A DNA stretch of 64,000 nt from Thuidium tamariscinum (lineage: Eukaryota; Streptophyta; Bryopsida; Hypnales; Thuidiaceae), in contig OX344757.2 in NCBI GenBank assembly GCA_947034885.2, positions 5,890,001 to 5,954,000 of the forward strand, written 5' to 3'. The translations under genes and the position numbers were made by a program. The notes beneath the pieces were generated by a model. It ran no database searches. It was given only the letters and a program-made list of their open reading frames with translations, and was not told the DNA's origin. Position 1 is the first letter of the stretch. Every line of letters starts with the position of its first letter. Positions 11,261 to 63,970 of the stretch are shown here, in pieces.

Positions 11261-11360
11261 ACAAGAAAATGTAAGTCCAAGTGCTTGGATATAAGTAAAT
11301 TTGATTTTCAAGTAAAAAATTGGTGGAAATACATGGGAACAAGTCCCATGTGAGAACTTG

Positions 11361-11581
11361 TAGATTTTGAGAAGAAAAAAGTAAATAGATTACAAGTTCT
11401 TGTAAAAGATAGGTGGAATTCGAATTCTATATTCAAATTTCATAGATCCTAAATAGATAATTAGATTTTGTAGATTTTGAGAAGAAAAAAAATAAGTAGA
11501 TTACAAGTTCTTATAAAAGATAGGTGGAATTTGAATTCTATATTTAAATTTCATAGATCCTAAATAGATAATTAGATTTTG
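11361..11581. repeat. Tandem duplication, two ~110-bp units
   Basis: A unit beginning TAGATTTTGAGAAGAAAAAA at 11361 is repeated from 11471 with only a few differences. The copies sit head to tail. High identity suggests a recent duplication by slippage or unequal exchange. Confidence 0.85.
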
Positions 11582-22008: not shown

Positions 22009-22016
22009 CTTAACAA

Positions 22017-22570
22017 CAGGGATGACGGGACATCCGGACGTCCATGGGACGTGGACACTACCCCTCTGACGTCTTTTGACATTTGAAATTTTTTTTGACA
22101 TACGTCCAACGGACGGGCGACCGGACAGCCATGCGGACGGCCTTTTAGTAAGACGAAAGGCGGACGGGTAGTCGGTCGGACTACGGACGGGAGGTGGGAT
22201 AGCGGTCGGTCGAGTTGCGGACAGGCGGTCAGTCAGACTGCGGACGGAAGGCGGGACGGCGGTCGGTCGAAGTGCGGATGGGCGGACAAATTGCGGACAG
22301 CAAACCGGTCCATTGGTAGGAAGTGCGGACGGCAACTCCACGCATCCGCCCGCCTTGCTGTCCGAAGTCTACAATCCGCACTCCGTCCGCAGTCTGCAGT
22401 CCGTCCGCTGTCCGCAGTCCATCTACAGTTTCTCCGCTTGTCTGTCCTAGATCCGCCCGCCTTGGAAGGGCCATCCAATTGGAGTCCATCTGTGAGCCCT
22501 AGCCGTCCGCCCTACCCGTTTGCATCGTCGGGGCCGTCCGAGCATCGTTCCTTCGGGGGACTATTTGGAG
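22017..22570. repeat. Left subterminal CGGAC array of the hAT element
   Basis: Dozens of CGGAC or GTCCG words occur in about 550 bp, often as GCGGACGG. Orientation is mainly CGGAC up to about 22330 and mainly GTCCG from there on, so the array is itself roughly palindromic. GC content is far above the surrounding AT-rich DNA. The overlapping open frames here are by-products of the repeated motif. Confidence 0.85.
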
Positions 22571-22639
22571 TTCGGGCAAGCTCCAATCAATTGATTTTTG
22601 GTGACTTCTTTGGAAACTTTCTTACAAAATAGGAAAATT

Positions 22640-23110
22640 GATTACCTTTGTGGAAATATAATTTTTATTTCAATACGTGACCCAATGCAAATGTTACTCC
22701 ACGAAAAGCTCCAATTTATTCCCGGTGGGAAGTACAATAAATCCACAGAATTTTGAAATTATATTTGAAATTTTTTTTTTCTTATAGATTACATTTTCTT
22801 CTATGTGAAAAGCTTTGATTCATTCCGCTTGGATTAGTTATATGAAAGTTATGAACAATCTTGTTTTGGGGGAAGTTTGAGCATCTTTTTGAAAAAATAA
22901 TTTGTAGGATGCATTTCTAATAGCAATTTTGACAATTTTTTAGAGAAAATTGTTTGACAAGCTTAAATTGGCTTACTCAAACAGTCTCACCATCGCAATG
23001 AATGTGTTTTGATTCCATCTTAGAGGTTTAGGGTTTAGTTTTCTTTTCAATCTCGGATCTACTTCTACTTAATAATTTTTAAAAGAATGAAAATCAAACA
23101 TTTTTGTTTT
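22640..23110 (+). repeat. Interspersed repeat S, copy 1 (inside the hAT element)
   Basis: Shares blocks with 29455-29860: an ATGTGAAAAGCTTTGATTCATTCC-like passage, ATGGACAATCTTGTTTT-like text, a CTCACCAT..AAT passage, and an end near CTAGACTACCAACTGAATT. It has been captured within the hAT element or was present before its ends formed. Confidence 0.55.
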
Positions 23111-24730
23111 AATTTTTTTTCCTAGACTACCAACTGAATTTTTCTACCCAAAAAATTGGAAAAATGAAAGCTCAACTATTTTCAATTTGAAATAAAGGAT
23201 TTAGGCAATCAAAAAAGTGTAGAAAAATCCCCAAGAGTTCAATGATTCTAAAAATTTCCACATAGTTGCTTCTTACCATCTTAAACATATGTAAAAAAAT
23301 TTGCAAAATTTCACACATCCAATCAAAATTTGTGCCTAATTTTGTCAACTGTGACTAATGTGACTAATACTCCCCAAGGGCATTAGTCACATTAGTCACA
23401 ATTTGCCCAAATCTCCCTAATTACGTGCCTTCTCCAATTTGGAATTGTCCCAAAACTTACCAATACTTGGAAAAGGTCCCAACAAAGCACCTCATGAAAA
23501 AAAATTGAAAAAATAAAAGCCCAACTATTTTCAATTTGAAATAATGAGTTAAATCAATAAAACAATTGTAGAAAAATCCCCAAGTATCCAATGATCCTAG
23601 AAACTTCCACATAGTTGCTTCTTACCATTTTAAACATATATAGAAAGTCTTGAAAGTTTTTACAAACCCAATCAAAAGTTGCGCCCAACTTAATGGATTG
23701 TGACTAATACCCTTTGAGGGCATTAGTCACATTAGTCACAATCCACTAAATTGGGCACAACTTTTGATTGGATTTGTAAAAACTTTCAAGACTTTCTATA
23801 TATGTTTAAAATGGTAAGAAGCAACTATGTGGAAGTTTCTAGGATCATTGGATACTTGGGGATTTTTCTACAATTGTTTTATTGATTTAACTCATTATTT
23901 CAAATTGAAAATAGTTGGGCTTTTATTTTTTCAATTTTTTTTCATGAGGTGCTTTGTTGGGACCTTTTCCAAGTATTGGTAAGTTTTGGGACAATTCCAA
24001 ATTGGAGAAGGCACGTAATTAGGGAGATTTGGGCAAATTGTGACTAATGTGACTAATGCCCTTGGGGGGTATTAGTCACATTAGTCACAGTTGACAAAAT
24101 TAGGCACAAATTTTGATTGGATGTGTGAAATTTTGCAAATTTTTTTACATATGTTTAAGATGGTAAGAAGCAACTATGTGGAAATTTTTAGAATCATTGA
24201 ACACTTTGGGATTTTTCTACAATTTTTTGATTGCCTAAACCCTTTATTCCAAATTGAAAATGGTTGGGCTTTTATTTTTCCAATTTTTTTTGATGAAGTG
24301 CTTCTTGGGGACTTGTTTCAAGGATTGGGAAGTTTTGGGACAATTTCAAATTGGAGAAGGCACGTAATTAGGAGATTTGGGCAATTGTGATTGATGTGAC
24401 TAATGACTTTTAAGAACATTAGTCACAATTGACTAGATTTGGCACAACTATTGTGTGTGTTTGAGAATTTTTTCAAGACTTTTTATGTGTATTTTAGATA
24501 ATAAAAGGCACATATGTGAAAATTTCTAGAAGTGTTAGACCCTTTGGGATTTTTCTACTATTTTTTGATTGATTTAGCTTCTTATTTTAAAATGAATATG
24601 GTTGGGCTTTGATTTTTTCAAATTTTTTTGACAAGGTGCTTGTAAGGGACATGTTTCAAGGATTGGGAAGTTTTGGGACAATTTCATATTAGAGAAGGCA
24701 TGAGATTAGGGGAATCGGGCAATTGTGACT
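23110..24730. repeat. Inverted and direct array of five ~340-bp units
   Basis: Two units read on the minus strand (about 23110-23390 and 23390-23715) and three on the plus strand (about 23720-24055, 24055-24395 and 24395-24730). Together they make a large palindrome centred near 23720. Each unit has CAACTATGTGGAA, GGGATTTTTCTAC, TTGGGCTTT and GAGAAGGCA blocks. Unit borders carry a small hairpin built from GTGACTAATGTGACTAAT and its complement around 23350, 23710, 24050 and 24390. The inner pair is nearly identical; the outer plus-strand unit is the most diverged. Confidence 0.85.
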
Positions 24731-25204
24731 TCTCAAAAACTTCCATTTCTTTTGTTGAATATCAATTTTAAGATTTTTGAAATGCACAAGAAATAGTGAC
24801 AAAATTAAATCTCCTCAATTGTGTCATATTTCTTACATTTTTGTATCAAAGTTGTTATTTTTGCCCTATCACCCGTGTTGTTGCCGCCATGAAGATGCTA
24901 GAAGGAGAGTTTAAAGATGGTATGGCGGCCATGGGGAAAGCTTGCAGCTACCACGGTGGCAACTTTCTCATTAATTTAGCCCTTTGACTTGCCAAAATAC
25001 GGAATCCAATGTCCAAGCTGGGCCGGCAAGGTCCCCTGTAGAAATGGAAATTCTGGCGGGGTAGAGCCAAAATTGAGAGGCCCCGCACCTCTAAATCTTG
25101 GTTTACAGTGTTGTTGGGGATTAACTTTTGCTCGGCTGCTCAAAAATTGGTTGGCAGGGGCGTTTGAGCAGGCTACAGGAGATGCTCTTAGAATCCTAAG
25201 CCAA

Positions 25205-25766
25205 AAGCCCTAAACGTGCGGACAAGAGAATCCCACACTTCAGTGCGCGGACGGCGCCGTCTCCATTGGCCGTCCGCCCGTCCGCTCTAACCGCTCATCC
25301 GTCTCCCTAGTCCCTGTCCGCAATCCCAACCACCCGTCCGCCCGTCGCCCATCTACAATTCCGTCCGCCCGTCCGCAGTCCCGACCCCCCGTCCGCCCAT
25401 CGCCTTGTCCGCAATTCCGTCCACTACTTCGTCTGCGCATCCGTCCGTCTGCAGTTCCGACCGTCTGCGGACGGGCGGTCGAGACTGCGGACGGGCGGAT
25501 GCGCGGATAGTCTCATTCCATAGTCTAGCCCCATAGTCTTGTTCATCCATTCGCCTATTTGCCCGTCGGACGGTGTCGTCCGTTGCTCCGTCCGCAGTCC
25601 CGACCGCCAATCCGCCCGTCCGAAGTTCCGTCCGTGCGTCTGCTTGACTGCTTCTGACGGATGCCGTCCGTTAGTCGCCGAGGACTACATCCACAGCGTC
25701 CACTGCGTTCGGACGTCCGGATTTTGGACGTAATTTTGCCTTGGACGTTGCAATTTGTCAACCCTG
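25205..25766. repeat. Right subterminal CGGAC array of the hAT element
   Basis: GC-rich run of CCGTCCGC/GTCCG words, with a short inverted stretch of GCGGACGGGCGG at about 25470-25500, ending in the hAT terminus. It mirrors the left array in composition and spacing but not base for base. Confidence 0.85.
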
Positions 25767-25774
25767 CTTAACAA

Positions 25775-36299: not shown

Positions 36300-39200
36300 T
36301 AAAAACCTCTAGAAGAGATTGAGATGTCTACCACACTTATATGCAATAGTTAGCTCACTTTAATCCTGAGGTTGTATTTTCATCCACTCCATGTCCTCTT
36401 TTATTCCTATTCTTAGGGAATTCCTAATCATATGAGACATGTCAACTTTAGCTTCTTCTACCCTTGATTGCAAAGGACAACAACTTTATTTTTAAAAACG
36501 ACAAGATGTATTTCCTTTCGTGCAAGAATATGTAGAAGCCCCATGTTCACTTCACTAAATCTTACAAAATAGACAACAAGGAAAGGAATTCCTAAAAAGA
36601 ATATCCAATTTTGTGTCTATAGAAGGGAAGAATTACTAGTAAAGGGGATGAAATGGAGAAATAGAAAACCAACATGAATGAAGAAGAGACCCTTCAATGC
36701 AAAGTAGAAAATATATAGGAAACAAATACAATTACTACTACTAGAGTACTAGTATGTGTAGGTTTTTGACAAGCAAGATATTTGTCTTTGAACCCATTAC
36801 TTTGGATTTTAAAATTATACATTGATAGAAAACAAGTTTTTTCTAAAATTTTTTACCAAACTTCTTGTACAATTTTTTTATAAAATTTGACAAGAACCTA
36901 GGCAAACATTGAGGTCCATTTATCTTCTCTTAGAGGTAACTGGATACCAATGCTACCTAAATCCATGGTCCTCTTTACATTGAGGTTTTTTTTAATAACG
37001 GAGGGTCCCTTCTATTACAATCGCTATGGGTTATATTCTTACAAACAAGTGCATTCCAAATTCTTGAGTCAAATGATACTGAACATGAACTTCAAGGCTT
37101 TCATTCATCTTTACAAAAAAATTGGGGTATAAAGGGGATTAATGCTTGTTTTATTGGTCCACAAGAGAATATATAAAGTCTATTTAAAATTTCTCTACCA
37201 GTCCAACTGCAGTCTAAATGGTATTTGATTCAACTAGTCAAGATATTTAAATACAGTAGTCACAAAATAATAGGGGGTAATATACTTGAAACATGAAAAA
37301 GGTCTTATGCTTTGCTTTCACATGAAGAACTCATAGAATAATATTAAGCACTAAAATTTGCACAACTGATGACAAAAAATGAATTATTAAATCTTCAAGT
37401 CCTAAATCCTAAACGCAATCCACGATTGTAGGATCCACGGTCATAGGTCACAATTCTTATTATAAATTGTAATTTTCCAAAAACATATGGAAAAAATTGC
37501 AAAGTAAACCCTAAACCACCAAAAAAACAAAATAAAAAGGTTCTCAAGCTCTATGCTCACAAGCTCCATGCTCACAACTCACAAGCTTACGGCTCCAAGC
37601 TTGCATGCTAGCATCATTGGGTGTTTTTCTAGGTGTTTGCATTAGGGAGTTGGATTGTCGTGAGTTGTTTTACCTTATACACACCCAAAACTTTGTATAC
37701 TACAATTACAAACTACAAATAGAATTTATACATAGTTGATTTATATCCTAAATTAAACAATAACAAACTTTCTTTAAATGACTACTAGGCAATTTTTGAC
37801 CTTCAACCCTATATTCACACAAAAGTGCATTTAAGGTCTAAGAAATTTGAAATAACCTAAAAGAACTTGACTATCCTTTCTAGAGACTATATTGCTTGCA
37901 AAACATTATCTCCTAAAGATCCAAATGTAAGTTTGTTGTATGTAAGAAATCTTTGATAGGTTCTTGTGAAGTCAATTTTTTGTCAAATGTTTTTATAGAA
38001 TTCTAGCACATGTTATGGACTCATACCTCTTAAATAGTATAAATAAATTTTTTTATTTTGATGAGGTGCCTAGATCAAAAGACATCCTACTCCAAATTTT
38101 TGGGTAGCTTAGGCAATTTTTGCCAAATTCCTCCAATAATTTGAAATTTGGCAAGTATGTTATGTTTCCAAAAAACAATCACATGTGGTAAGAAAATCAC
38201 TTTACAAGGAGTCTTAGTTTGTTGGCCCTATCTAGTAAGGTTAGATAACAAAATATTCTCTTAGTTTGAAACATAGTAATCTTTCACTCTATTAGGTCAA
38301 AGTCTTTAAAAAAAATTCCACGCATTTTTATAGTAGTTTAGAACAATTGATTTTTTTCTCAGTCCCCTAAGAAATGAATTTTTTTCCCAATTTTTGTCTA
38401 AAGTGAGCTTCAATTCTTTTGAAGTTATCTAAAGCAATCACATCAACAACTAAGGTTTTATAAGTAATCTACTTGAATCAAATAGGAAGTCTAATTTATA
38501 AGATAAAGTTAAGCCCATATAAAAGGTTATTTAACTTTTGTCCAATATATAAATACAAGGAGAAAAAAATGGTTTCGATTTTGTTTTGTTTTTAAAAATT
38601 TAGAAATTTTTTTTAGAAATTTTTTTTGTAATTTTTTTTTGTAACTGCACATCCCTATGTAGACAAGCAACCTTGTATAAGATCCAAATTTCTTCTAATG
38701 TCCATCTTGAAACTACATTGCATCCAACTATTCAAATACCTTTCTTTAGTTTTACTATCCAAAAAAATATTCAAAATTTTATTGAATTCTTATATATGCT
38801 CTAGCAAAAGGACAATTCTTTTGTTTTTAATTAGAATCAATCCTATTCATAGTTTAAAATATAGTCAATAGTTATATATTCATTATTAGTGTCAAGTCAA
38901 TGTGTTTCAAAATCAACTATTTGAATTTCTGTAGAGAAATATAGAAAAAACTCTAAAATAGTGCCATTTCAATATTAAATTCAGTCAATAATTGAAACAT
39001 TGCTAAAAAGTTGATAATCAATAAAAAAAGGAAAATTATGATGAATGTTCTTAAATCTATTTATTCAATGAATGTCCTTCATGCTTGACTTTTCCTCTTT
39101 TGCATGTCCTAGTTTGTTGAAGAACGTTTTGATGGAGAACGCGTTGATATAGTAATAATTCCCACCTACAACCCAAAAAAGTTTACACAATACCCTATTA

Positions 39201-40993: not shown

Positions 40994-43900
40994 TTAACGT
41001 CCTTGAATCCAAACCCAAGATAAGACTGGGCTAAACTCAATCGCCGTACCTGCAGATGTCCAAGCAGCAGCGGCTACATGCTTGAGACAAGGCAGCCTCT
41101 CAATTGACGAGCGCTGCAGCTCTAACGATATGGTGCTTCGAGGGGTTCCGACCTGAACTTGATCTTGCACGCTCATCAGCTCAGTTTGCAAGTCCCGTCG
41201 CAATTTTTCTTGAATCTAAAGAACGTGACCATGAATGCCTTAAAAAAGCATCACGAGTGTTCCTGCAGGTCTTCTAGTTTGCTATCGACTTCAACCCTCA
41301 AAGATTCTGACCATATGACGACACAACGGAAGAGAGAGCCTCAAAAATGTTTTCACGTAGAGGTCATGTAACTTAGAAGCCAATGGGAACCAAAACATTA
41401 GTTAAGACATTCATTTACAGCACCTGGCATGCCGCTTCGGCTGGGTAGTCGCGTTCCATTACTAGGCATCCATTTCCGTGCATTGACAGCAGATATAAAT
41501 CATCAGACCTGGGTTGAATAATACCAAGGCGATGGTTGAAATTGCGAAAATGACCAGAATGAGAGATTCGTAATCATGAATTATATTTTCATTTCTCGAA
41601 TCTGTCACAGAAGGATAAGACTTACAGAGGAACCACAGCTTCCAGTGGGCAAGTGCATGGTTGCCACGCCAGCTGCACAATTTCTGAACCCTGAGCAGCA
41701 ATCTCGAACACGCCCAGGCCATGTAGCTTCTCAACCACCTGGTTGAACAGAACTTCCAAAGTTTGGACTAAATTGTCGCACGCAGATCAAGCACAGAATT
41801 CCCCTTCTCAAGTGTTAAACTGATCAAGTGATAAACCAGTACCAGAAAACGACAAGCTAGGATTTTCAAACCCTGCCCACACATCGGAACGAGAGGGTCT
41901 GGTACCAGTAAAGTTCCTCTAGATACTGGAATCAAAGCCGTCACGCAGCCTTCCCCTGGTGTGACAAAGGAAGCCAGGTTCTGTATATTAATTCGAGAAC
42001 TGGTGGACCATGTGGAAGCAAGTCCGCCATGCTTAAAAGGTGTCCGTGGAACTCCAAGACTGTCTTCTGTCGTCGCTGTCGCCGTGGCACTTGGTCCCTC
42101 CTCATCTTCATCACCTTCAGCTTGTTGATCAAGGTCCTCTTGCACTCCTGCGACTGTTCCGTTAGCGTGTCTTTTATCAAGTGTAGTTCATCATTCAAAC
42201 AATATGGAAAGCAAACAGGGGAAAAAAAAGAAGTCACAAAGATTACTTGACTGACAAAGAACAAGGAAGAAGTGGAAGCATACCGGGAAAAGGGAGGAAA
42301 GGTGCGTCTAAGGCAGCTGCAACCGAAGGCACTACCAGCATGCAGGCCTCAGAGGCTCCGACAAACGCGTATAGAAGCTCAACCTTTCCGTGAAATCCCA
42401 ACGCCAATAAAGAGCCTCTCGGAGCATCTGAACCAATCTGAGGTGCAACCGAGTCACTACTTCCGTCTCTGTTATCAAACACAGAAAGTTCCATCAAAGT
42501 TTAGGGTTAGCCGCAACATAGTCTATCGCATTGAAGATGTAGTCAAAAGACTAAGACCCAGTTTGGTATCGGTGCATCACGTTCTCTGTACAAGAAAAAT
42601 ACATTCGGCCTTTCACTACATGAGACAGAATTCTGGATAAAGTAGGAATGGAGGTTGGCAACCAGTTCACATACGTGCAACACTGGCTCCAATGTTTGCC
42701 TGCATGCTCCAGACATAGTAAAATGTCTACCAACCAAGGATCATCACGAGGTAAAGATTCCAAACTACACATGGAGCAGGGCGAGGGAGTGAAAGACTTG
42801 CTGGGAGTATCCAATGTGCATATGGAGTGACAAGGTTGATCCAAATGGTGCAAGCCCAACAAGCGCAGCTCATATTTGACCTCCTTCTCGCCTACATCGT
42901 TCCGATGAACCTACGTCAGTGTAATCCTTGCAATATTTGTATTTGGTTTCTTAATCTCTTATTTACAAAACTTGAAAGCAGCATTACATTCATAGCAAAA
43001 AATGTCCGACATGTAAGCTTGCCAGAAAAGTAGTATAATTACGATCAGATTCAGCAAACACGTCTGCAACCAGAGAACAGGAGAGTGAGAAATGGGATCT
43101 CACTCGCGTAATTGACTTGAAGATCAAGAAAGGAAAGAAGGCCACTCGATTTCTGCTCATCCATCAACTGACCTGACACTACCAAGCATTCCACTGATTC
43201 TGCATTCTGGTCACGTAGCATTTTAAAATTTTATCAAGCTGGTGTTCAATAATATTCGACAACATAAAGAAATCAACAAGAAATTTCATTCGATTAATCG
43301 GTTGTCAATCATGAGAAAAGAACTCCCAGAGCTTACCTGGCTGCAAATTGTGTAGGGCAGCTGCAGCGCGGTCAGCACTATTGGAAAATGGTTGCATTCC
43401 AACTCCACTACCAGCAACTTCCCAAGAAATCAAAAGGAGACTACCATCAGTGGCCTGAAATAGCGGATGATAACATAATTGGGGGGGAAAAAAACTTTCC
43501 TCACACCTAGACATTCTTGCTCCAATTCGTTTCGAGTGAATTGTAAACAGTCGCAACAAGGCACAACATGAACTTTGTAATGAGACTAGAGTCTTGGAAA
43601 AATGATAGGAAACCCTTACCTGTAACATGGTCTCTTCGTGCACAATATGAAGACTCGATGAAACGGCATCCTGAAACCAGCAGCAGGAATATACACTGAG
43701 AAATCGGCAAATTCATGAGTAAGGAATTCCGCAAGGATGTAGTGTAAGTTTTGTCATCCAATGCGGCAGATCATTTTCACCAAAGTATGCACTTCACACG
43801 AAGGGCTTCAATAAAATACGGAGTACCAAATATACTTTGTACTATCGAATGTGTACATGCAGGAGCTAGGAATCAAATAATGCTCACAATAGAGGTAAAT

Positions 43901-46900
43901 GCAATGCATCTGCTACTCTTATGGTAAGCCACATGCATAGCGGTGCCCTCAACTTTCAAGACTTTCCATCTGCACGAAAATCATAAGGTATTACAACTTA
44001 CAATTACTAATTTCTCACAGAAGAGTATGAAGAGCAATCATATTGTAATTACAGCGGATGCCAGGACAAGCAAGCCAGATGTACCTTAACTTGATAGAGA
44101 GATCCAAGTGCCCACACAATAATTTTCCATCCTTTGTTGCTCCAAAAAGACTAAATGGGTGCTCCTCTGTGTGCAATCTGTCATTTCTTGCCTAAGTTGG
44201 TTTCGATAGACCAGAAAATAACCAAATCAATTTTATTAAGAATACCATTATGTTTGTTAAAATAAAGGTGTTTGTTAAAAGAAACGACTTCGTTGAAATC
44301 TCTTAAAACTAGGATTGATATGTACAAATCTGAGGTTTTCGGTCGGGATACTGAAACTGTTATTTACTTTAACTCAGTTTCAGTACCCCAACTGAAAACC
44401 TCAGATTCGTGTACCAATCCACGTGTTAAGAGCTTTGGCAGCTGACCGTCCTAATTTATATGCAGAGCTCTTTGCGCTTGATCGTCAAAATTTTGGCTCT
44501 CTGAAATTTGCCATTTCAACGAATATGACCATAGTGCCTAATATTTTAACGTTTCGCAGTACTCTAAGTATCCAGACACAATAGCGACGACCTTAAGACT
44601 CGAAAGAAAATAAAGTTGTGCAGAAACTCTAAGAAGTTCAAAACTAGAAGAGGGAGAACTTTGTTACAGGAAATGGAAGGTTGAGAAACAGTCACAATCG
44701 GGATATGGGAGAAAAGAAATACTTCGTCAATTGGGGAACAAAATGTGACTGGCAATGCAACACCACAGCATGTAAATCTTGTAGACGCTGTGGCAGCAGT
44801 ACTAAACTGCGTTCGCTCCAGATGTACAGGCACTCTTCATCATTCTCGGAACTAGAGTTCACAGTTTGATTGCTTATTCCTCCATCTCCACAACCGTTGA
44901 AACACCCAAACTCCATATGAGTTATGATTTTTCCCACCCTGATAATTCTTCCATGTCGAAGCGTATACTGCGGCACCTTAAAGTGCTCGCTTTCCAAGGT
45001 CGATTTATTATTAGCCTGTAGTTTTGAAGGAATGGTACCCATATTTCTTATTCTCCTCAGCATCCTCTTACTCTCCCCTGCCACCTCATCCACTGCTGAC
45101 GGGAGATTTTCCAAATTAGTAGCATCCTCGTTCCCAATCCCGCTAGAGCTACTCTTTAAGTCCGACAGCCTGTAGTACACAAGATTACCGTCTGCAGTGC
45201 CAGCGAATATGTGGTCGATCATAGCAAACCGGCCCAGTGCAACTGAAAGAACTGGTGCCGTGCAGGCGTCCATAGTGACCAGCTCTTCCTATAAAACCAC
45301 ATCCTTATTCTAGAGTCTCGCAAGGATCAAAATCAAAACAACGGAAATGATCGAACGGAAACAACAAGCAAAAGAAACTCTCACAGATTTCTATCCCCTG
45401 CAAACATAGCGAGGGTCGCACAGACATTAATGCTAAAAGAGGGTGGCACTTGGTTTGAGAGGGTACATTACTTATCGAAATTCATCAGGCATCTAACTTA
45501 GCACCCATAATTATTGATTAAAATAAATTGAGTTGTGCCAGAGGAGGGAAGAAGTAAACAAGAGAAGTGAACAGACCAGGTTCGGCCAAGATAGTAAATG
45601 GACCGAATTGGAAGTCCATTGAGCGATAACCACAACAAGCTCTCTGGCGATTGTGTGGAGGCAAGAATTCCCCACGTGGCACAATCCGAGCGCAGACACC
45701 TGCATCAATCAAAATCATCATGCACAATAGAGTTCACTCTGATCAGACTCAGTGAGGGCACTAATACTGTATACTGTATGAGCACCTCCCTCCAACAATT
45801 TGATAATCGTCAAGGGAAGAAGTTCACACTAGGTAACTTTCTAGTTTGGACGTGGAAGCCAAGGAGATGAAGGCTACTCACTCATCTCAAATATTATGAG
45901 GTATTAATTTCATGATAATCAAATGTTCATCCGATGCCTATTAGTTATCAAATCAAACAACCTTGAGCCAATTCCAGAGAAATGCTGAATCGATGTAATG
46001 TTCATACAATTCTCTAAAACAACATTAAAGTAACATCCCGTCATTGGGTTTGATATATTGTTCGACTGACAACTAGTAAGTTGATGTTCGTATTACCATT
46101 ACTTTCATACCACCTTAACATTGGCATAATGTACACTATGAAATAAGATTAGTAATACCTGATGGGGGCGTTCAGAGCTAGCAATAGTATGCGGCACTCC
46201 AAAGCAATCCATCTCCACACTGTGAACAGCTGCGCCACTCACCAGCAATGCTCCCTCGGGTGCGAGAGCCGCGTGATGAATCTTTTCAGAGCCCCTGCGG
46301 TTTCGCGGAGAATCAGGAGGTGGGAAAGGAAGTTTCCATTCCGCTCGTAAATCTCTTGAACTGCTGTCGTTGCCCAGAACTCTGAGAGAGGTTTCCGTAA
46401 TCTAAAAGCAGGAACAATCAATCCATCAGACAGGCGAATGCAAAGGATTCAAACAGTTCTTAGTCCCCATTAAGATTTATACATAAACTAGCAATCTTCT
46501 CCAAAAATCTCAGAACGATAAGGAGTAAACTGCTGACATCTTCTTCCGTCCTGCGGGCCGTCCTGCACCACCATGCAATAAGATTCGCTGCACTTTTAAG
46601 GGAAAATTAAAGAGCAAGAACCTGCGGGCCGAGCATCTACATGCTATTCTTGTCATATTTCTCTACTGTCACACGATCTTAACACAACTCAAAATCAATG
46701 GATGGGGTATACCTGAGTGAACCACCCTCCGGGTAGAGCTGAAAGTGCCAGTGTACATTGTCGTCGGTCAAGTCCTTGCATGAAGTGGTCTTCAGTCTTC
46801 GTTCCGTTGATATTTATGACTTCACTAACATGCTGTTCAGACACAAGATTGCAGTCATCTACACTCTGAACGATCACAGAAAACCTAACTTTCTTTCAAG

Positions 46901-49900
46901 ACTTATCCCTATTCAATCACTTGAAAATGCAATTAGATTCACAGTCGGTTTTCCCAAATATCTGTCTGGCTCGTGAATGGTTCAAAAGAAGCCAATGTAT
47001 TCCTCAAACTCATTAAGGTCCTGTCTTAAAATACGACTTTTGAGGGATAAGTCAACTTACTGCTATAGGATACGAAACCAATATGTATGTGTGGAACTCT
47101 GATCCCCAAAATTCACAAAAAGGCAGCAACTGAGGCAATCCCCGTACCTAGGAGTTCCAAAAGAAGAGGAACATATATATCACATCGACGCGAACCAAAG
47201 GAAAGTTGAGTCAGCAAAAAATATCAAAAACACATATCATGAAAAGGATCAATATTGAAGAACACCATATAAAAGCAAACATAACTACAGACGTACAGGA
47301 GTAAAAAGAAGTTCCTTACATCAGCTTCCATGATTGTGTCAACATGAAAAGTCGCCATGAGACTCCCTCTGCAATGATAAATCACCGTTATCGATTCAGT
47401 CACTTCAAATATTCAAGAAAATGCTTTCTGCATATAAAATCTTTAAATCTTTAAACTTATCATATAAGAATTTAGTACTTTCGCAGTGTAGAGGCTGGCG
47501 AACTTCCGCATGCTAAAAGCAGAAATGAATCAGGACTGTGAATCGCCTCTTTAACGAGGACAACATCTCTAACAGGGGCCAGACTATCTAGATATGAACT
47601 TGATTCTACTGCCAAATTTTTCCCGGACCACTTGTCTCCATAATCAACAGGAGAACCTTCAATTGATTCTGCAATGCAACATTTGGTGCTTTAAGAATCG
47701 ATCACCAGTGGCTTGCCACCCCTGCGTAAACAATTGATTCGTTGAAGCATCCTCAACAAAATGCACAGCGAAATTCATTATTTCTTAAATATTGATATAG
47801 TGAAACACTATCTAAGAAATACTGCAGACTACCGCCTGTCGAATATACGTGAATACCTGCAGGAGTGCGTATTAATTTAAACAGCTGCGAATCGCCACCT
47901 TGGCCCGAAGCGAAGATAGTAGTGCCTCCAAAATGTTGTTTTCTCATCACATGTAGTAGTATCTGGTCCAATAAATCGAGACGCTCAAATGAAAACTAAT
48001 AATCTTCACTATACTCACTAAGCTCTCACCACTTATATCGTGCGCACTATCTTCCCTGGTTCTTCCCCAATCTATAGAACTACGTGCATTTGTATTCGCA
48101 GTAGGACCATTACTGAAGTGAACATGTTGATGATGTTATTGTAAATATCCATTTCAAGAAAGTATATAAGAGCTATCTTTACGCATTCTGAAAACAGACT
48201 TTAGAGCAAGTTAAAAGAACATTTCCCCAACATCAGCATGGAATGTCTACAGGAACTGTGGAACGTCTACTTAAATTTTTGAACTGAAGCAGGAGAGTTA
48301 AGCTGAAATATCAGCGGAGTCAATTTTCAAGAGGAAGATAGCGGAGATGAGGCAGACGTACCCTCGCAGGAGGTAGCGGGCTGTTTAGGACTATTTTCGA
48401 GATGATATTCGACTCCCAGATACTGAGATCCAGGATGTGAAGGCCTCCAGCATCATCACCTAAAACCTAGAATTCACGTCAGGCAGATATTCCATAGTTT
48501 CGTGTAAGCTGCACTTCTCTCGAGACATTGAAAACTGAGCACCTCTGTTATTTCATGCATGCTTGCGAGTTGATTTCAAAACCTACATCAAGAAAAGTTA
48601 TGACGTACTCCACAATGATCAGACGTGAAGTCACTTGAAGTTGAAAGAGAACAATCATATGTTGTTCAATAACTCGACGGTTAGGAGCATAAGAAGATTA
48701 CCAAGCGATTTTGAGGAAGACTAATCCAACAAGTGGGAAGGCCATCCAGGTGCAAAGGTAAGGAAGCCCTTCGTCCTCCAGATTCTACAAACATCATACC
48801 AGCACTGGACACCACTAGAACTCCTGATCCAGGGTTCAACCCTGTTTCCAGTATACCACTTTTGATTCCAACGTCTGCAAGATTCCCCGCCAAGGACCAG
48901 GGGAGTAACAGTGATGTACTGGGATTCAGATTCCTGGTAGAGGACATTACGAGCAATCGTGAGAATATCCAAATCCGAACTTACTAAATTTCAGCTTGGC
49001 ATGACGAAGTCAGTAATACAAGTCAAGGCTTGCCAATTCCATTCAAACCCTAAAAGGTCAGAGACGAGTACCTAATCTCCCATGGACCAGGTTGAAGCTG
49101 AAATGTGGTTAAATCCAAAACCATACACTGCAACCTCAAACTATGATAAATAAAACCTGCGGAACGAATCATGTCACGTTTACAGGTCAAAATTTGTTTG
49201 TATTCACTACTTGTTCTACGTAGCCGCACCATGTGGCAGAAATGGAGGTAGTCAGTTGATGACATATTACCCTGTTGAGAAGATAATAACACCAAGAGTG
49301 GACGTCCCTTGACGTCTAAAGCTCCATATCGAGCTCCTTCATTCGCACCAAGAAAGGCTAGGTCTCGGATAACAAAAGGGTTGACGATTGCTACCATAGG
49401 AGGACCAGGGATGGAATTATCCTTTGGTAAAGGAACAAAGTGGAGGTTGAGCCTCGGTGTCAAGGATGGTTTTAAGGGCCAAACGCCGCACTCCTTTAAC
49501 ATCGTTGTATAGGCCGAGATCCACTCCACACATAAAATTCCAAGCATGCCTTCATACAAGCTCATCGCTACAAGAGCGAGTCCTTCAACCTGCAGCAATT
49601 TGGCAATCGTGTAGAATAGTGCAGAAGCACCAAGAAATTTCTCTGCATATTACTTAAAAATATAGCTTTACTACCGAACAGAGAATGGTGGAACTGTACA
49701 ACAAAAGAGAGGCATGAGATGCAACGAGAATAAGTCAGCAAGGACCCTTAGAGGTTTCTGTGTGATTAAGACTGGTTTCACACCTTCGATGTCTTCCCAT
49801 GTTCAGCTTCATTCGATGAAAGCGGCCTTTGCGAGGATGATCTTCTGGGAAGATACAATGGGCAGGAGAATAGGGGCGAACTCGGCAGAGCTTCAGAGGG

Positions 49901-51190
49901 AAGTTCGGGACTGAGATGAACTGTTATTGGCCCAGATTCTCGTACCTCTGACAGGGTTTCATTCCACTCGCAGACCATCAACCCACCTGAACCATCAGTC
50001 ACCTGCTACCACATGAACAATAGTCAAGAATCCAGTATATCGTATAGAGGAAAAATGCGACAATGATAATGCAACTATCATTAAAAAAACTAGATATTAA
50101 TAAGCTGCTCGCACGAGTTTTTGAATGATTAGATACCGGAAGAAGAATTTCTAAGAATTAGGCTTTGGGACAAACCCCTAAAAGCATGTAGAATGATGAA
50201 CAATAGCCAGCGTAAGGTTTTCCAGGACTCATTCCATTCTCACCAACCCGTGTTTGTGATAAGGAAGTAAAATCACCAGGAGGAGGTCAAGATGCAGAGG
50301 AGTCGAATCTGCATCCTGGCAGCTGAACATAAACTTGGAAGTTTCCAGCACACAGCATTGAGAAACTGGTCTCTCAAGCTCTCCACTGATCACCTTCCTT
50401 TGCCGCTGTTCATCCACCTCCCACACCTCCATAGCCACCTGCTCGCCAGAAGACCACCCCCTCCACATTTCAGGACTTTTAGCAATTTCTTAAAAGTCAA
50501 TTTCGCATTCAAGATAGGCAAGCTGAATTCATTTGAGAACTGCACACATTGGATCATTTAAACTGCAGATACTTCCATCAATAGAGCCACAGATATTCAC
50601 GAACAAGTTCATGAAAGTATCGCACTGAATACTCTTCGTCGAGATTGCCATCAGGGATTCATACTCGAGAAACGCAAACTGAATTCAATTAAGAACTACA
50701 CGGCATAAAAAACAAGCCCTGCAGTAATTTTTACCATATAGATATTCACGAACAAGCTCATGAAAGCATTGCACTGAATACTCTTCGTCAAGATTGGCAT
50801 TAGGGTTTCATACTCGAAAAACACAAACTGAACTCAATTGAGAATTACGCGTCTTAAATCATAAACATTGCAATAATCTTCAGTAGAGCCATAGGGATTC
50901 ACTAACCAGTTCATTCTAGGCTGGCATTGAACAATCTTCGAAAAGCTACCTGTAGGGTTTGTAAAATTCTACACAAGCAGAAATTATTTTTTCTAACAGA
51001 TCTTGAGAGATGAATTAGTCATTGAAAAAACCTCCTTAAAGATGACGAGCTGGAGCACACGTGGATCTGTGAAGCGAGCAACGGCAGCCGCCGTAACAAG
51101 GCTCGTCGCCTGCAATCTTCTGTAGAGAATGCTTGTTTGGGGAGATTTTGGAGGTTCCTGTACCCCTTCGACTCTTCTTCGTCGCGCCAT
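40994..51190 (-). CDS. CPSF-A/DDB1-family beta-propeller protein (MMS1_N and CPSF_A regions), multi-exon
   Basis: Family members (DDB1, SF3b130, CPSF160) are three-propeller scaffolds in nuclear ubiquitin-ligase, splicing or 3'-end complexes; which branch this is cannot be decided here. Exons in transcript order: 51190-51032, 50438-50244, 50002-49784, 49589-49072, 48933-48702, 48466-48362, 48112-48019, 47962-47857, 47668-47479, 47368-47320, 47147-47061, 46865-46713, 46401-46159, 45699-45577, 45288-44723, 44177-44085, 43969-43888, 43670-43620, 43454-43337, 43199-43117. Less certain: ~42880-42740, 42468-42336, ~42150-41860, 41767-41626 and ~41310-40994. Nearly all of the first twenty join in phase with GT..AG. 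Telling matches to DDB1: VLGDDAGGLHIL, ASGQGGDSQLFKL, LAPVRDVVLV, ELVVVIAQWTSNSVHLL, HIFAGTADGNLVYYRL. The start is the first ATG in frame (MARRRR). The frame into 48112-48019 and the 3' exons are unresolved. Expected length is about 1,400 residues, longer than DDB1, with an acidic insert (EGDEDEEG) near the C-terminus. Confidence 0.8.
44301..44431. other. Intronic hairpin, miRNA-precursor-like
   Basis: Two arms (44301-44359 and 44375-44431), about 58 nt each and roughly 80 percent complementary, are separated by a 15-nt loop. It lies within the intron 44178-44722 of the CPSF-A-family gene. The best-paired stretch includes AATCTGAGGTTTTC on one arm and its complement on the other. Size and shape fit a plant miRNA foldback, but a decayed MITE would look the same. 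I do not recognise the arm sequences as a known miRNA. Confidence 0.4.
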
Positions 51191-56891: not shown

Positions 56892-58781
56892 ACAACAACA
56901 CTAGAGTATGAGCAGAGAGTGACGAGCAATGAGCATTGAGCGGCAAGCGTTTAGACTTGAACGCTCATTAAGATCATTTTTACTAAAAATAGACATGTCA
57001 GTCATAAATAGTGATGTTAGATCCAAAAATAGTAATGTCAAAACTACCAAAATAAAAATTACTAAAAATAAAAATTTCAAAAAATCAATTTATTGCTAGA
57101 ACATGTTTAATTTAAGGTAGTTATTTAGCACTCAAATGTTGTAGGTAGGGCCAAGAATAATAGCCTAACATCTCTCACAACATGAAAGGTAGTACAATTG
57201 AAGTAATGTACAAATGAATTTCATCCATGTCATAGGTTCATTCTTTTGAAATAATTGGAAAATACATTCAAATATTCAATTAACAGAAAAAAATAATGTA
57301 GCAAACAACTCATCGGATCTAGGGAGACATTTCTTTCTTCAAATTTTGGGGTTATTTTAAATGTAATTTAAAAGGTACAAAAAATTCAAAATTACTTTTT
57401 GGTAAGAAAAAAAAATTTATTAATTAATTTTTTGGTCAAAATTTATTTAAACCCATAAAATAAAATTCATTTTTTTTCAATCAACAAATGGCTCCGAAGA
57501 TCCAAAGAGAAATTTCTTGTTGCTAGAAACACCTTCCCTCTATTCATTTAGATAATCTTTAAATTTAAATTAAATTTGATTTTAATTTATTTTTTAATAT
57601 TTCAAAAATATTTTTTAAGATAAATAAAATAATTTAGTTCAAAGCTCCTCGAAATCCGAGGAGCCTTTGTTGAGCTCCAAAAAGCCTTCTTTTAGCGCAA
57701 CCGGACCTGAAGTCTTAAAGAACTTTAAGCCTTTGTATGCCCCCGAAACAACTTTTCTTGGCACCTAAAATAGGTTCTTCGGAACTGAGGAGGCTTCTCT
57801 TGGTAGTTAGCACTAGCAAGAAGAGGCTCCTCGGAAACCGAGAAGCCTTTGTTGAGCTCCGAAAAACCTTCTACTATCACGAACGGACCTTTTTAAAGGA
57901 CTTGAAGCCTTTGCATACCCTTGAAACAACTTTTATTGGCACCCAAAATGGGCTCCTCAGAACCAAGGAGGCTTCTCTTGGTAGTTAGCACTAGCAAGGA
58001 AAGGCTCCTCAGAATCCAAGGAGCCCTCATTAAAATTTTAAATTTTTTTTTCTTGGCACCCAAAATGGGCTCCTCAGAACCAAGGAGGCTTCCCTTAGTA
58101 GTTAGCACTAGCAAGGGGAGGCTCCTCGGAATCCGAGGAGCCCTCATTAAAAAAAAAAATTTTAAATTTGAATTATTTTTTGAAAAAGATAATTGAATTT
58201 TTTTAATAGTAGTTTAAATTTCCTCCAAATTAATGTGGGAAAGGTGCCTTTAGTAATGAAAAATTGCTTCTTGAATCCAAAGAGCCATCTATATTATTAT
58301 TATTTTTTTATTATTTTTCAAAATACAAATTTTCTTTTGAAAAAAATAATTATAAAATTTTAAATATAAAATTTAAATTTAAATAAACTCCCAAATTAAT
58401 TAAGGGAGGGTCTTTTGGTAACTTCTTTATCTTTAGTTAAAGGTACTTGAACATCAATCTTTATCCTAAACAACTAAATTTTTTATCCCATTCAATATAC
58501 ATTTATCATTTAATGAAATGAACAATAGATGTATTTCATCCATCAAAGCCAACTACAATTTTTTTTATTAAAATCTATTCATCCCCATTCATCTCCATTC
58601 ATCATCTTTAAACTCATTTATAACCATAAACGTATACTCTTAACCACGGATGTAGGCATCTTATGGTGAAAAGTTTTAAATTTTTTACAAGATTTTAAAA
58701 AATCGGTCACACTTCAATGCTCATTGCTTGTCGCTCAATGCTCAACGCTTGTCGCTCCTTGCTCATACTTTAGGAACCCTG
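56892..58781. mobile_element. Non-autonomous hAT transposon 2 (1890 bp)
   Basis: The right end is ..ATACTTTAGGAACCCTG, that is CAGGG.. when read inward. The left end is ACAACAACACTAGAGTATGA, less well kept. Both run into an imperfect ~45-bp inverted repeat rich in GAGCG/GAGCA words. The 8-bp duplication TTCCTTTC lies at 56884-56891 and 58782-58789; an extra matching A makes the border uncertain by one base. The internal tandem array is listed separately. No transposase is seen. Confidence 0.82.
57643..58141. repeat. Tandem array with palindromic boxes inside hAT 2
   Basis: Units of about 180 bp start at ~57643 and ~57827, with a shortened unit of ~115 bp at ~58006. Borders are marked by the palindrome GGCTCCTCGGAATCCGAGGA or variants. 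Shared text includes CTTCTCTTGGTAGTTAGCAC and TTGGCACCCAAAATGGGCTC. The open frames on both strands are by-products of the repeat. Confidence 0.85.
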
Positions 58782-62602: not shown

Positions 62603-63970
62603 TCAGATGAGATCCAAGAGCGTCGCCAGTCTTTGCAGCTCCTGCGATTGGTGATGGAGATGAAAGTCCCCGGGGAAAATCCCACCGTGGGGGTTTAGAT
62701 TTATGGTGGGAGTTGCAGCAGCAGCGAACATGGACTCAGGCGCCGGTTGTGGGTTAAGTTCTGTGTCCATAGCCCAAGAATCTAGCCCTTGAATCTCCGA
62801 CTGGACAAATGCCCCAAACACGTCGTTACTCTCTCCGATGTGCTCATTGTTCGGAGAACTCTGCATGATGTACGAGTCCCATTCGTTCAGAAGCTCACTC
62901 GGTGAGCTGCTCGGCTTGATGCATTTCCAAAGCTCGGCTTGGGGGAAGGATGGCGCGGTGGTGAGCTTGCGAACAATCTCGTGCTGGGGTTCGGACGGAC
63001 AATCCTTCTCCGCAGTGACCGTGCTCCCCGAATTCGACTGGTCGGAGATCGTGGACTCGGTGTCGACGTCGGATTTGAGGAGCACCAGCTGTGGACCTTC
63101 CTTGCTCTGGAACATCTTCAGCTGCGGTTTCGGACCCTTGGGCTGACGCACTTTCGGGGCAGGCGCCTCGATTTTCGGACTGGGTTTCTTTTTCGGCACA
63201 GAGGAGTTGGAGACATCGTCGCACGAGTCGCCGTCGTCGTTGTCGTCGCCGTCGTCGACTCCTGTGGGGCTATCTTTCGATTCTAACGGTAAGTGCGTCG
63301 TCGGATCCAGGCCCTGGCTGCGCAGCCGCTTCTTCAGACGCGTGTTCCAGTAGTTCTTGATTTCATTGTCCGTGCGGCCTGGTAGCTGCGCCGCGATTCG
63401 TGACCATCTGAGCCAAACCCAAACCCAAACCCTCAAACAACTTAGAAACACACTTGACGCCCAACTCTTACTAGACACAAGCTCTAGATAGTTACATACC
63501 AAAGACACCACGTATTGCAAAGTCCATGAAAGATGAGAAACTTCGGACGGAGAATGTCAATAATTACGGAAATGGTGACACTCACCGGTTGCCCAGAGTC
63601 GCATGAAGGTCAAGGATGAGATTCTCCTCCGCCTCGGTGAAAATCCCGCGCTTGAGGTCTGGTCGCAAGTAGTTCGTCCATCGGAGACGACAGCTCTTCC
63701 CGCAACGCAACAACCCTAGAGAATCGCATCCCCAAACACCCATTCAGCAACACACAAACGCAAACACAACCATTCCTGCCCTCCTCAAGAAAAAATTCTG
63801 CGAAAGACAACCACGAATTTCCTCCCTGACTACTCACCTGCCAGTTTGGGAATCGCTCTCCAACAGCAGATGCCGTTGGTGGTGATGTACGACACCAGCT
63901 TCCCATCTTCTTCGGCCGTCCATGGCCCTCGCTTGAGTCCCACTTTCTCACAGCATGGTTTCCTCCCCAT
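62603..63970 (-). CDS. R2R3-MYB transcription factor (355 aa), three exons
   Basis: Nuclear DNA-binding regulator. Exons: 63970-63838, 63715-63586 and 63407-62603, joined at GT..AG in phase at the two positions usual for plant R2R3-MYBs. It begins [17 protein letters not shown]. Repeat R2 has W17, W37 and W57; R3 has F70, W89 and W108, the normal pattern with the first R3 tryptophan replaced. The recognition-helix regions read [20 protein letters not shown] and [20 protein letters not shown]. The [17 protein letters not shown] text resembles the Arabidopsis MYB20/40/42/43/85/99 group, several of which act in secondary-wall or lignin control; this is a resemblance, not proof of role. The tail has an acidic run at 139-152, then a Lys/Pro-rich part, and ends LATLLDLI. 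I see no bHLH-interaction motif in R3. The promoter lies beyond the window. Confidence 0.96.

Follow-up and report, generated by a model that had tools for sequence, protein, structure and literature searches.

Ac/Ds and other plant hAT transposons have CAGGG-type ends, 8-bp target-site duplications (TSDs) and short subterminal motifs, and we know of neither hairpin-bordered inverted arrays nor giant multi-gene relatives among them. Foldback elements with repetitive arms are, to our knowledge, known mainly from Drosophila, where Galileo and Tetris have P-superfamily ends and 7-bp TSDs. According to the accessible portions of the reports on Galileo, its long inverted repeats are internally repetitive and vary in repeat number, with ~210-bp tandem repeats inside the terminal inverted repeat (TIR), and recombination and conversion between them have been proposed (PMC3688188, PMC3573991). 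Tetris, a foldback transposon of Drosophila virilis, is described in the accessible part of its report as non-autonomous, modular and rearranged, with ~220-bp tandem repeats within its inverted repeats and ends common with the MITE DAIBAM (PMC4079207). In plants, there are MULEs with multiple tandem TIRs, in which subterminal sequence is duplicated and amplified with its duplication (PMC3310237, accessible portion).

We analyzed a 64,000-nucleotide stretch of Thuidium tamariscinum DNA (the window, C9:5890001-5954000) and searched the genome (363 Mb, 19 contigs) for related copies. An LHCB-type protein had its best structure matches in the multi-domain chains 9vfj_2 and 9vfj_11, followed by 8htu and 7xqp; these last two are moss structures, which tentatively fits a moss host. 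End families, TIR and TSD delimit a non-autonomous hAT element in the window, with the following parts:

22009..22016, no strand: left target-site duplication CTTAACAA
22017..25766, plus strand: non-autonomous hAT element, 3,750 bp
22017..22570 (inner limit approximate), plus strand: GC-rich left subterminal region
22980..23135, minus strand: remnant resembling the interior of a 45.5-kb relative (76.7%, 159-column alignment, E 4e-27)
25180..25766 (inner limit approximate), plus strand: GC-rich right subterminal region
25767..25774, no strand: right target-site duplication CTTAACAA

We assign the element to hAT because of its ends and its TSD. It begins with CAGGGATGACGGG on the left and CAGGGTTGACAAAT on the right (reverse complement), the outermost letters being CAGGG...CCCTG; its short terminal inverted repeats (CAGGGATGAC / CAGGGTTGAC) have the C/TAGGG motif, which we take to be the hAT type; and a perfect copy of the 8-bp CTTAACAA flanks each side. 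As this TSD shows, the element jumped in as one unit, and the repeat array that had been placed inside a hAT element does lie between these ends. The first ~175–190 bp of the left subterminal region are also found in MITE-like, array-free copies. The remnant aligns to 37184-37342 of the stretch containing the 45.5-kb relative, and interiors of a sister family (family B; the window element belongs to family A) match it too. There was no ORF of 150 aa within 22017-25766. At least 150 hAT C-terminal domains were counted in the genome. We found no transposase with the window's own end type; the transposase loci L025 and L026 showed no such ends. A search with PF14372 gave no match, and its control was equally silent. 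Elsewhere in the window, we observed a 111-bp tandem repeat in two copies (11358-11581, 94% matches), tandem repeats of 178 and 117 bp in overlapping rows (57644-58152), a region of elevated G+C (41000-51000, 0.39–0.46) whose two ORFs of more than 150 aa had no Pfam match, and an ORF with a Myb DNA-binding domain in a G+C-rich stretch (62603-63520).

The array occupies 23150-24723 and consists of five units of a ~349-bp repeat in the polarity - - + + +:

23150..23358, minus strand: unit U1, partial (209 of 305 nt)
23403..23707, minus strand: unit U2, type d
23732..24036, plus strand: unit U3, type c
24081..24385, plus strand: unit U4, type e
24419..24723, plus strand: unit U5, type f
23150..24289, no strand: large palindrome, 1,140 bp

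The initial annotation had described two inverted and three direct units, and all five could be mapped in these orientations, U1 only in part. It had also described a palindrome over 1 kb long; this measures 1,140 bp, with arms of 559 nt each (23150-23708 and 23731-24289) that are 98% complementary and separated by a gap of 22 nt. The left edge of the annotated span had to be moved from 23110 to 23150. The direct repeat family starts at 23699, 24048 and 24386, and its members match the reference at 84% and 74%. The body of a unit is ~305 bp long and is flanked by ATTAGTCACATTAGTCAC and GTGACTAATGTGACTAAT, and abutting units therefore form a palindrome of four GTGACTAAT motifs, seen as a hairpin at each internal border:

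23347..23403, no strand: border hairpin 1
23687..23755, no strand: border hairpin 2, at the centre of the palindrome, with three of the four GTGACTAAT copies
24036..24092, no strand: border hairpin 3, 23-bp stem
24383..24439, no strand: border hairpin 4, degenerate

All four border hairpins beat 200 of 200 shuffles in folding, with z values from -5.1 to -11.6. The annotated hairpin at every border is found at the four internal borders (about 23347, 23694, 24036 and 24383) and at neither outer edge; the right edge shows no more than a TTGTGAC stub, and the left edge no hairpin at all. The regular unit-plus-hairpin layout is present in the window and recurs in other copies. It had been called not standard for hAT interiors, and in agreement with this, no hairpin-bordered hAT array appeared among the open-access literature matches listed, in the portions that are accessible.

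Relative to the systems outlined above, the window element has the CAGGG-type ends, 8-bp TSD and short subterminal motifs of Ac/Ds and other plant hATs, in place of P-superfamily ends and a 7-bp TSD. Its closest known analogues are Tetris and Galileo, and it is a member of neither, because it belongs to another superfamily, has another TSD and carries its array elsewhere. Similar to Tetris, it is non-autonomous, modular and rearranged, it has tandem repeats within inverted repeats, and its ends are common with a short form, here MITE-like and 554 bp long. Unlike Tetris, it is a plant element with hAT ends and an 8-bp TSD, its array is interior, and its unit borders carry the four-motif palindrome; whereas long inverted repeats form the ends of foldback elements, the large palindrome lies internally, at 1134-2273 of 3750. 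Galileo resembles it in long, internally repetitive inverted repeats with varying repeat number and differs in superfamily, in transposase and in having its tandem repeats inside the TIR. MULEs differ in superfamily as well, and in them whole TIRs are duplicated, in contrast to the short internal unit with border palindromes seen here. We conclude that the array is probably the rearranged, satellite-like interior of a non-autonomous, foldback-like hAT element.

A different reading is that the array is a source of hairpin RNA, with read-through double-stranded RNA diced to siRNAs that silence the hAT family, or with the locus exapted as a microRNA gene. As the initial annotation anticipated, the RNA of 23150-24289 is predicted to fold as one near-perfect stem (-908 kcal/mol, a value without shuffles at such length), and the palindromic layout is seen again in other copies. 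Small-RNA silencing via such double-stranded RNA is possible. However, Rfam at gathering scores gave no match in the window, and the stems bear no mark of selection for pairing. Among 55 hairpins, 32 of them distinct, 551 of 576 stem cells were paired and 25 were changed; none of these changes was compensated, with a search pattern that tolerated three changes per arm and so limited the changes visible. Selection for RNA pairing is therefore unsupported, and a hairpin-RNA source is, in our estimate, an unlikely account of the array. Because stem changes are never compensated, a conserved DNA motif is favoured over a selected RNA hairpin.

The hairpin motif is not a chance feature: we counted 678 genomic occurrences of the exact 18-mer and 0 of its reversed control. 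Comparing families A and B, identity is 99.3% and 93.4% in the 18-nt stems but 58.3% in the unit body, and 0 of 283 body windows reached the mean identity of the stems. This comparison used 12 and 26 units of the two families, and its stem identity is raised because the 18 of 56 units without recognisable stems were dropped. It seems that sequence, rather than pairing as such, is held in the stems, and the conserved palindrome is most likely a putative protein-bound DNA site or a preferred break or recombination point.

If protein-bound, the palindromes could be transposase-binding arrays that raise mobility. The strong conservation of the four-motif sequence fits this idea, and there are precedents in the accessible parts of two reports: the TIR tandem repeats of Galileo bind a THAP domain (PMC3688188), and the BED domains of Hermes cooperatively bind a quasi-palindromic pair of subterminal repeats (PMC10368747). 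Binding has been shown for the Galileo repeats, whereas the window palindrome is a putative binding site. Against this idea, the window array is central, more than 1 kb from both ends, and two array-free copies with the window's ends, L023 (554 bp) and L022, have TSDs of 8/8 each, as the array-free 45.5-kb copy has its own. Since the short copies and the 45.5-kb copy do without the array, it is dispensable for mobility, and we consider a mobility-raising role for the palindromes quite unlikely. L022 (C7:8317363-8320706), a MITE-like hAT copy, contains a nested insertion with the ends CACTAGTAGAAAA / TTTTCTGCTAGTG, presumably CACTA-like by its end motif.

We determined how far the array has spread by using one unit as query. 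This gave at least 136 matches in at least 38 clusters, at least 23 of which had three or more units; both orientations were present in at least 21 of the 38. Cluster counts are lower bounds, 40 of 75 first-look candidates having been scored. Minus units precede plus units in 20 of 21 two-orientation clusters, the remaining one (on C7) being a double array, and the commonest unit order is ---+++ (7 of 21). We read five of the 23 larger A-type clusters, namely the window, L010, L020, L024 and L021. Their TSDs match at 8/8 in the window, L010 and L024 and at 7/8 in L021; no TSD was found for L020. Long palindromes in general are prone to misassembly, and the initial annotation had named an assembly error as what would overturn the array. 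The same unit types, however, are found in places whose flanks and TSDs differ, and because the array recurs at independent sites (L010, L024 and L021 with TSDs of their own), we regard an assembly artefact as hardly credible.

Each unit might instead be a small mobile element, its terminal inverted repeats forming the hairpins of a tandem MITE array, as the 18-bp inverted repeats flanking every unit body could suggest. Yet the spacer between units is variable and is itself partly complementary, and the search for free-standing single units proposed in the initial annotation found few candidates. Single matches made up 13 of the 38 clusters. Eleven of these are 151–166 nt long, the kind produced by family-B arrays, and two are near full length (C4:15135832, at 71%, and C5:20126641, 27 kb from an array). 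Spacer variation and the single matches both disfavour a tandem MITE array, which we judge very improbable. A rearranged interior of a foldback-like hAT element remains our preferred reading, and comparison between copies bears directly on the rearrangement.

The number of units and the orientation of the array centre vary among copies, whose unit types are recognisable from one copy to the next. For types c, d, e and f, identity between counterparts across the window, L010, L020 and L024 is 96–100%. Between types, c/d and e diverge by ~15%, f and the others by 20–26%, and c and d by 1–5%; types a, b and e are mutually 91–97% alike, so these three labels rest on few sites. The unit order is a- b- c- d+ e+ f+ in L020 and L024, a- d- c+ b+ e+ f+ in L010, and a'- d- c+ e+ f+ in the window, where b is absent. 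Because c and d, and likewise b and e, are so close, the flip was checked separately by spacer and by fixed differences. In the window and L010 the central hairpin has ACCCTTTGAGGGC as its spacer, whereas L020, L024 and L021 have the reverse complement of this sequence there. Fixed differences that agree with the inverted order number four for c/d and seven for b/e, and those that agree with the other groupings we tried number 0 and 0. The flip therefore sets two copies against three, among the 5 of 23 larger clusters read. Recombination between inverted units would be its simplest cause. In addition, L021 (C7:13810240-13815489) has two inverted five-unit arrays that form a 4.8-kb palindrome (arms 97%) within one element with a 7/8 TSD.

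The family-B unit is 346 bp long and ~67–73% identical to the window unit over its first 151 nt. It is carried by hAT elements of 6.8–9.2 kb with ends like CAGGG[T/C]TGTGCGGAC, and end pairs of this size had a TSD in 9 of 9 cases checked (five 8/8, four 7/8). We also noted small end pairs on C11 at 5696166-5703301 and 7410811-7419410. All five wholly read family-B elements have an array by each end, in opposite polarity, and in three of them the arrays sit within inverted arms of 2.3–2.4 kb; the arms start about 0.5–1.1 kb inward of the element ends. In a tree of the loop-proximal arm part, left and right arms were sisters in five of five elements (support 97-100/94-100). Arm identity within elements was 99.9, 99.8, 98.4, 98.0 and 94.8%, and between elements at most 97.7%. 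L005+L006 is the exception, its arms being 94.8% identical to each other and up to 95.1% to those of others; the tree still pairs them. That the arms of one element pair points to arm-to-arm conversion or to repeated re-formation. We also tried deriving the window array from two subterminal arrays simply brought together by an internal deletion, and this was rejected for its polarity conflict, because family B runs + + ... - - and the window - - + + +. The C1 loci retrieved by the 18-mer form 13 groups (L012 and L013 counted as one). hAT ends with TSD were present in seven, including one A copy and a 28.4-kb pair, and were not found in the other six (L001+L002, L003, L004, L007, L011 and L020).

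Family-B ends also bound much larger stretches. Four of the seven large pairs examined have a TSD and span 23–54 kb: one on C4 of 45.5 kb (GAACAAGC, 8/8) and three with 7/8, on C2 (53.8 kb), C11 (23.1 kb, 10004387-10027451) and C1 (28.4 kb). No matching TSD flanks the large pairs on C8, on C1 (65 kb) and on C7 (23.3 kb, 28332082-28355406). We characterized two of these elements:

C4:17755600-17801300 (L053-L057, 45,701-base stretch): 45.5-kb hAT element, perfect TSD
C1:34825738-34854107 (L012+L030+L031+L013): 28.4-kb element, family-B ends, 7/8 TSD

In the 45.5-kb copy, ORF matches to DUF659 and Dimer_Tnp_hAT exceed the Pfam cut-offs, BED, RING-like and kinase matches fall short of them, and several ORFs have no Pfam match; at L032, a related kinase ORF scores above the cut-off and a RING-like match below. 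Two ORFs of this element have at least 130 and at least 100 genome matches. The GTGACTAAT motif is absent from it. All six large pairs checked, including C4, contain the RING-adjoining and the kinase-like ORF, and the 28.4-kb pair is not among the matches listed for these ORFs. A transposase within TSD-bounded ends was demonstrated for the C4 pair only. In a related lineage, kinase, RING region and transposase occur in constant order and spacing (15 loci picked by eye among the matches listed). The 28.4-kb element has arrays at both ends and is collinear with the 45.5-kb element in several stretches; six of its ORFs gave no Pfam match at E 0.01. The basic giant size may be about 23 kb, and longer copies may contain nested insertions.

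All five small family-B elements are assembled from separate stretches related to the 45.5-kb copy at 70–93% identity (left end 63-567, 15.6–16.2 kb, 35.6–37.8 kb and right end). Because of this mosaic, family B appears to have arisen from giant hAT elements by deletion and rearrangement, with a relative of the 45.5-kb copy as its presumed source. The window element is tied to the giant group by one 159-column match (76.7%) plus weaker scraps. A broader proposal, which we regard as plausible rather than probable, is that there is an abundant class of giant (~23–54 kb) multi-gene hATs carrying a hAT transposase together with one RING-like and one kinase-like gene, and that the arrays of their foldback-like derivatives flip and convert unit by unit round the four-motif palindrome, which would act in cis as a specific DNA site. 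Among the open-access literature matches listed, in their accessible text, we saw no plant hAT of giant, multi-gene type, and in that of one review (PMC6431247) the whole word 'hAT' is absent.

As a mechanism for the rearranged foldback-like element, we infer that direct duplication built the array and that an inverted duplication created the palindrome before the copies spread. Later recombination and conversion between inverted units would have flipped and homogenised segments, with the border palindrome marking the putative bound site or preferred break point. The element would be mobilised in trans by a hAT transposase, a likely source of which is the giant hAT lineage.

A foldback architecture in a plant hAT suggests convergence with the Drosophila elements, and its natural copies let flips and conversion be counted. 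The conserved palindrome is a concrete candidate for a DNA-binding test. Giant multi-gene hATs, if confirmed, would extend what is known of the superfamily in size and gene content and would explain the origin of some of its non-autonomous forms.
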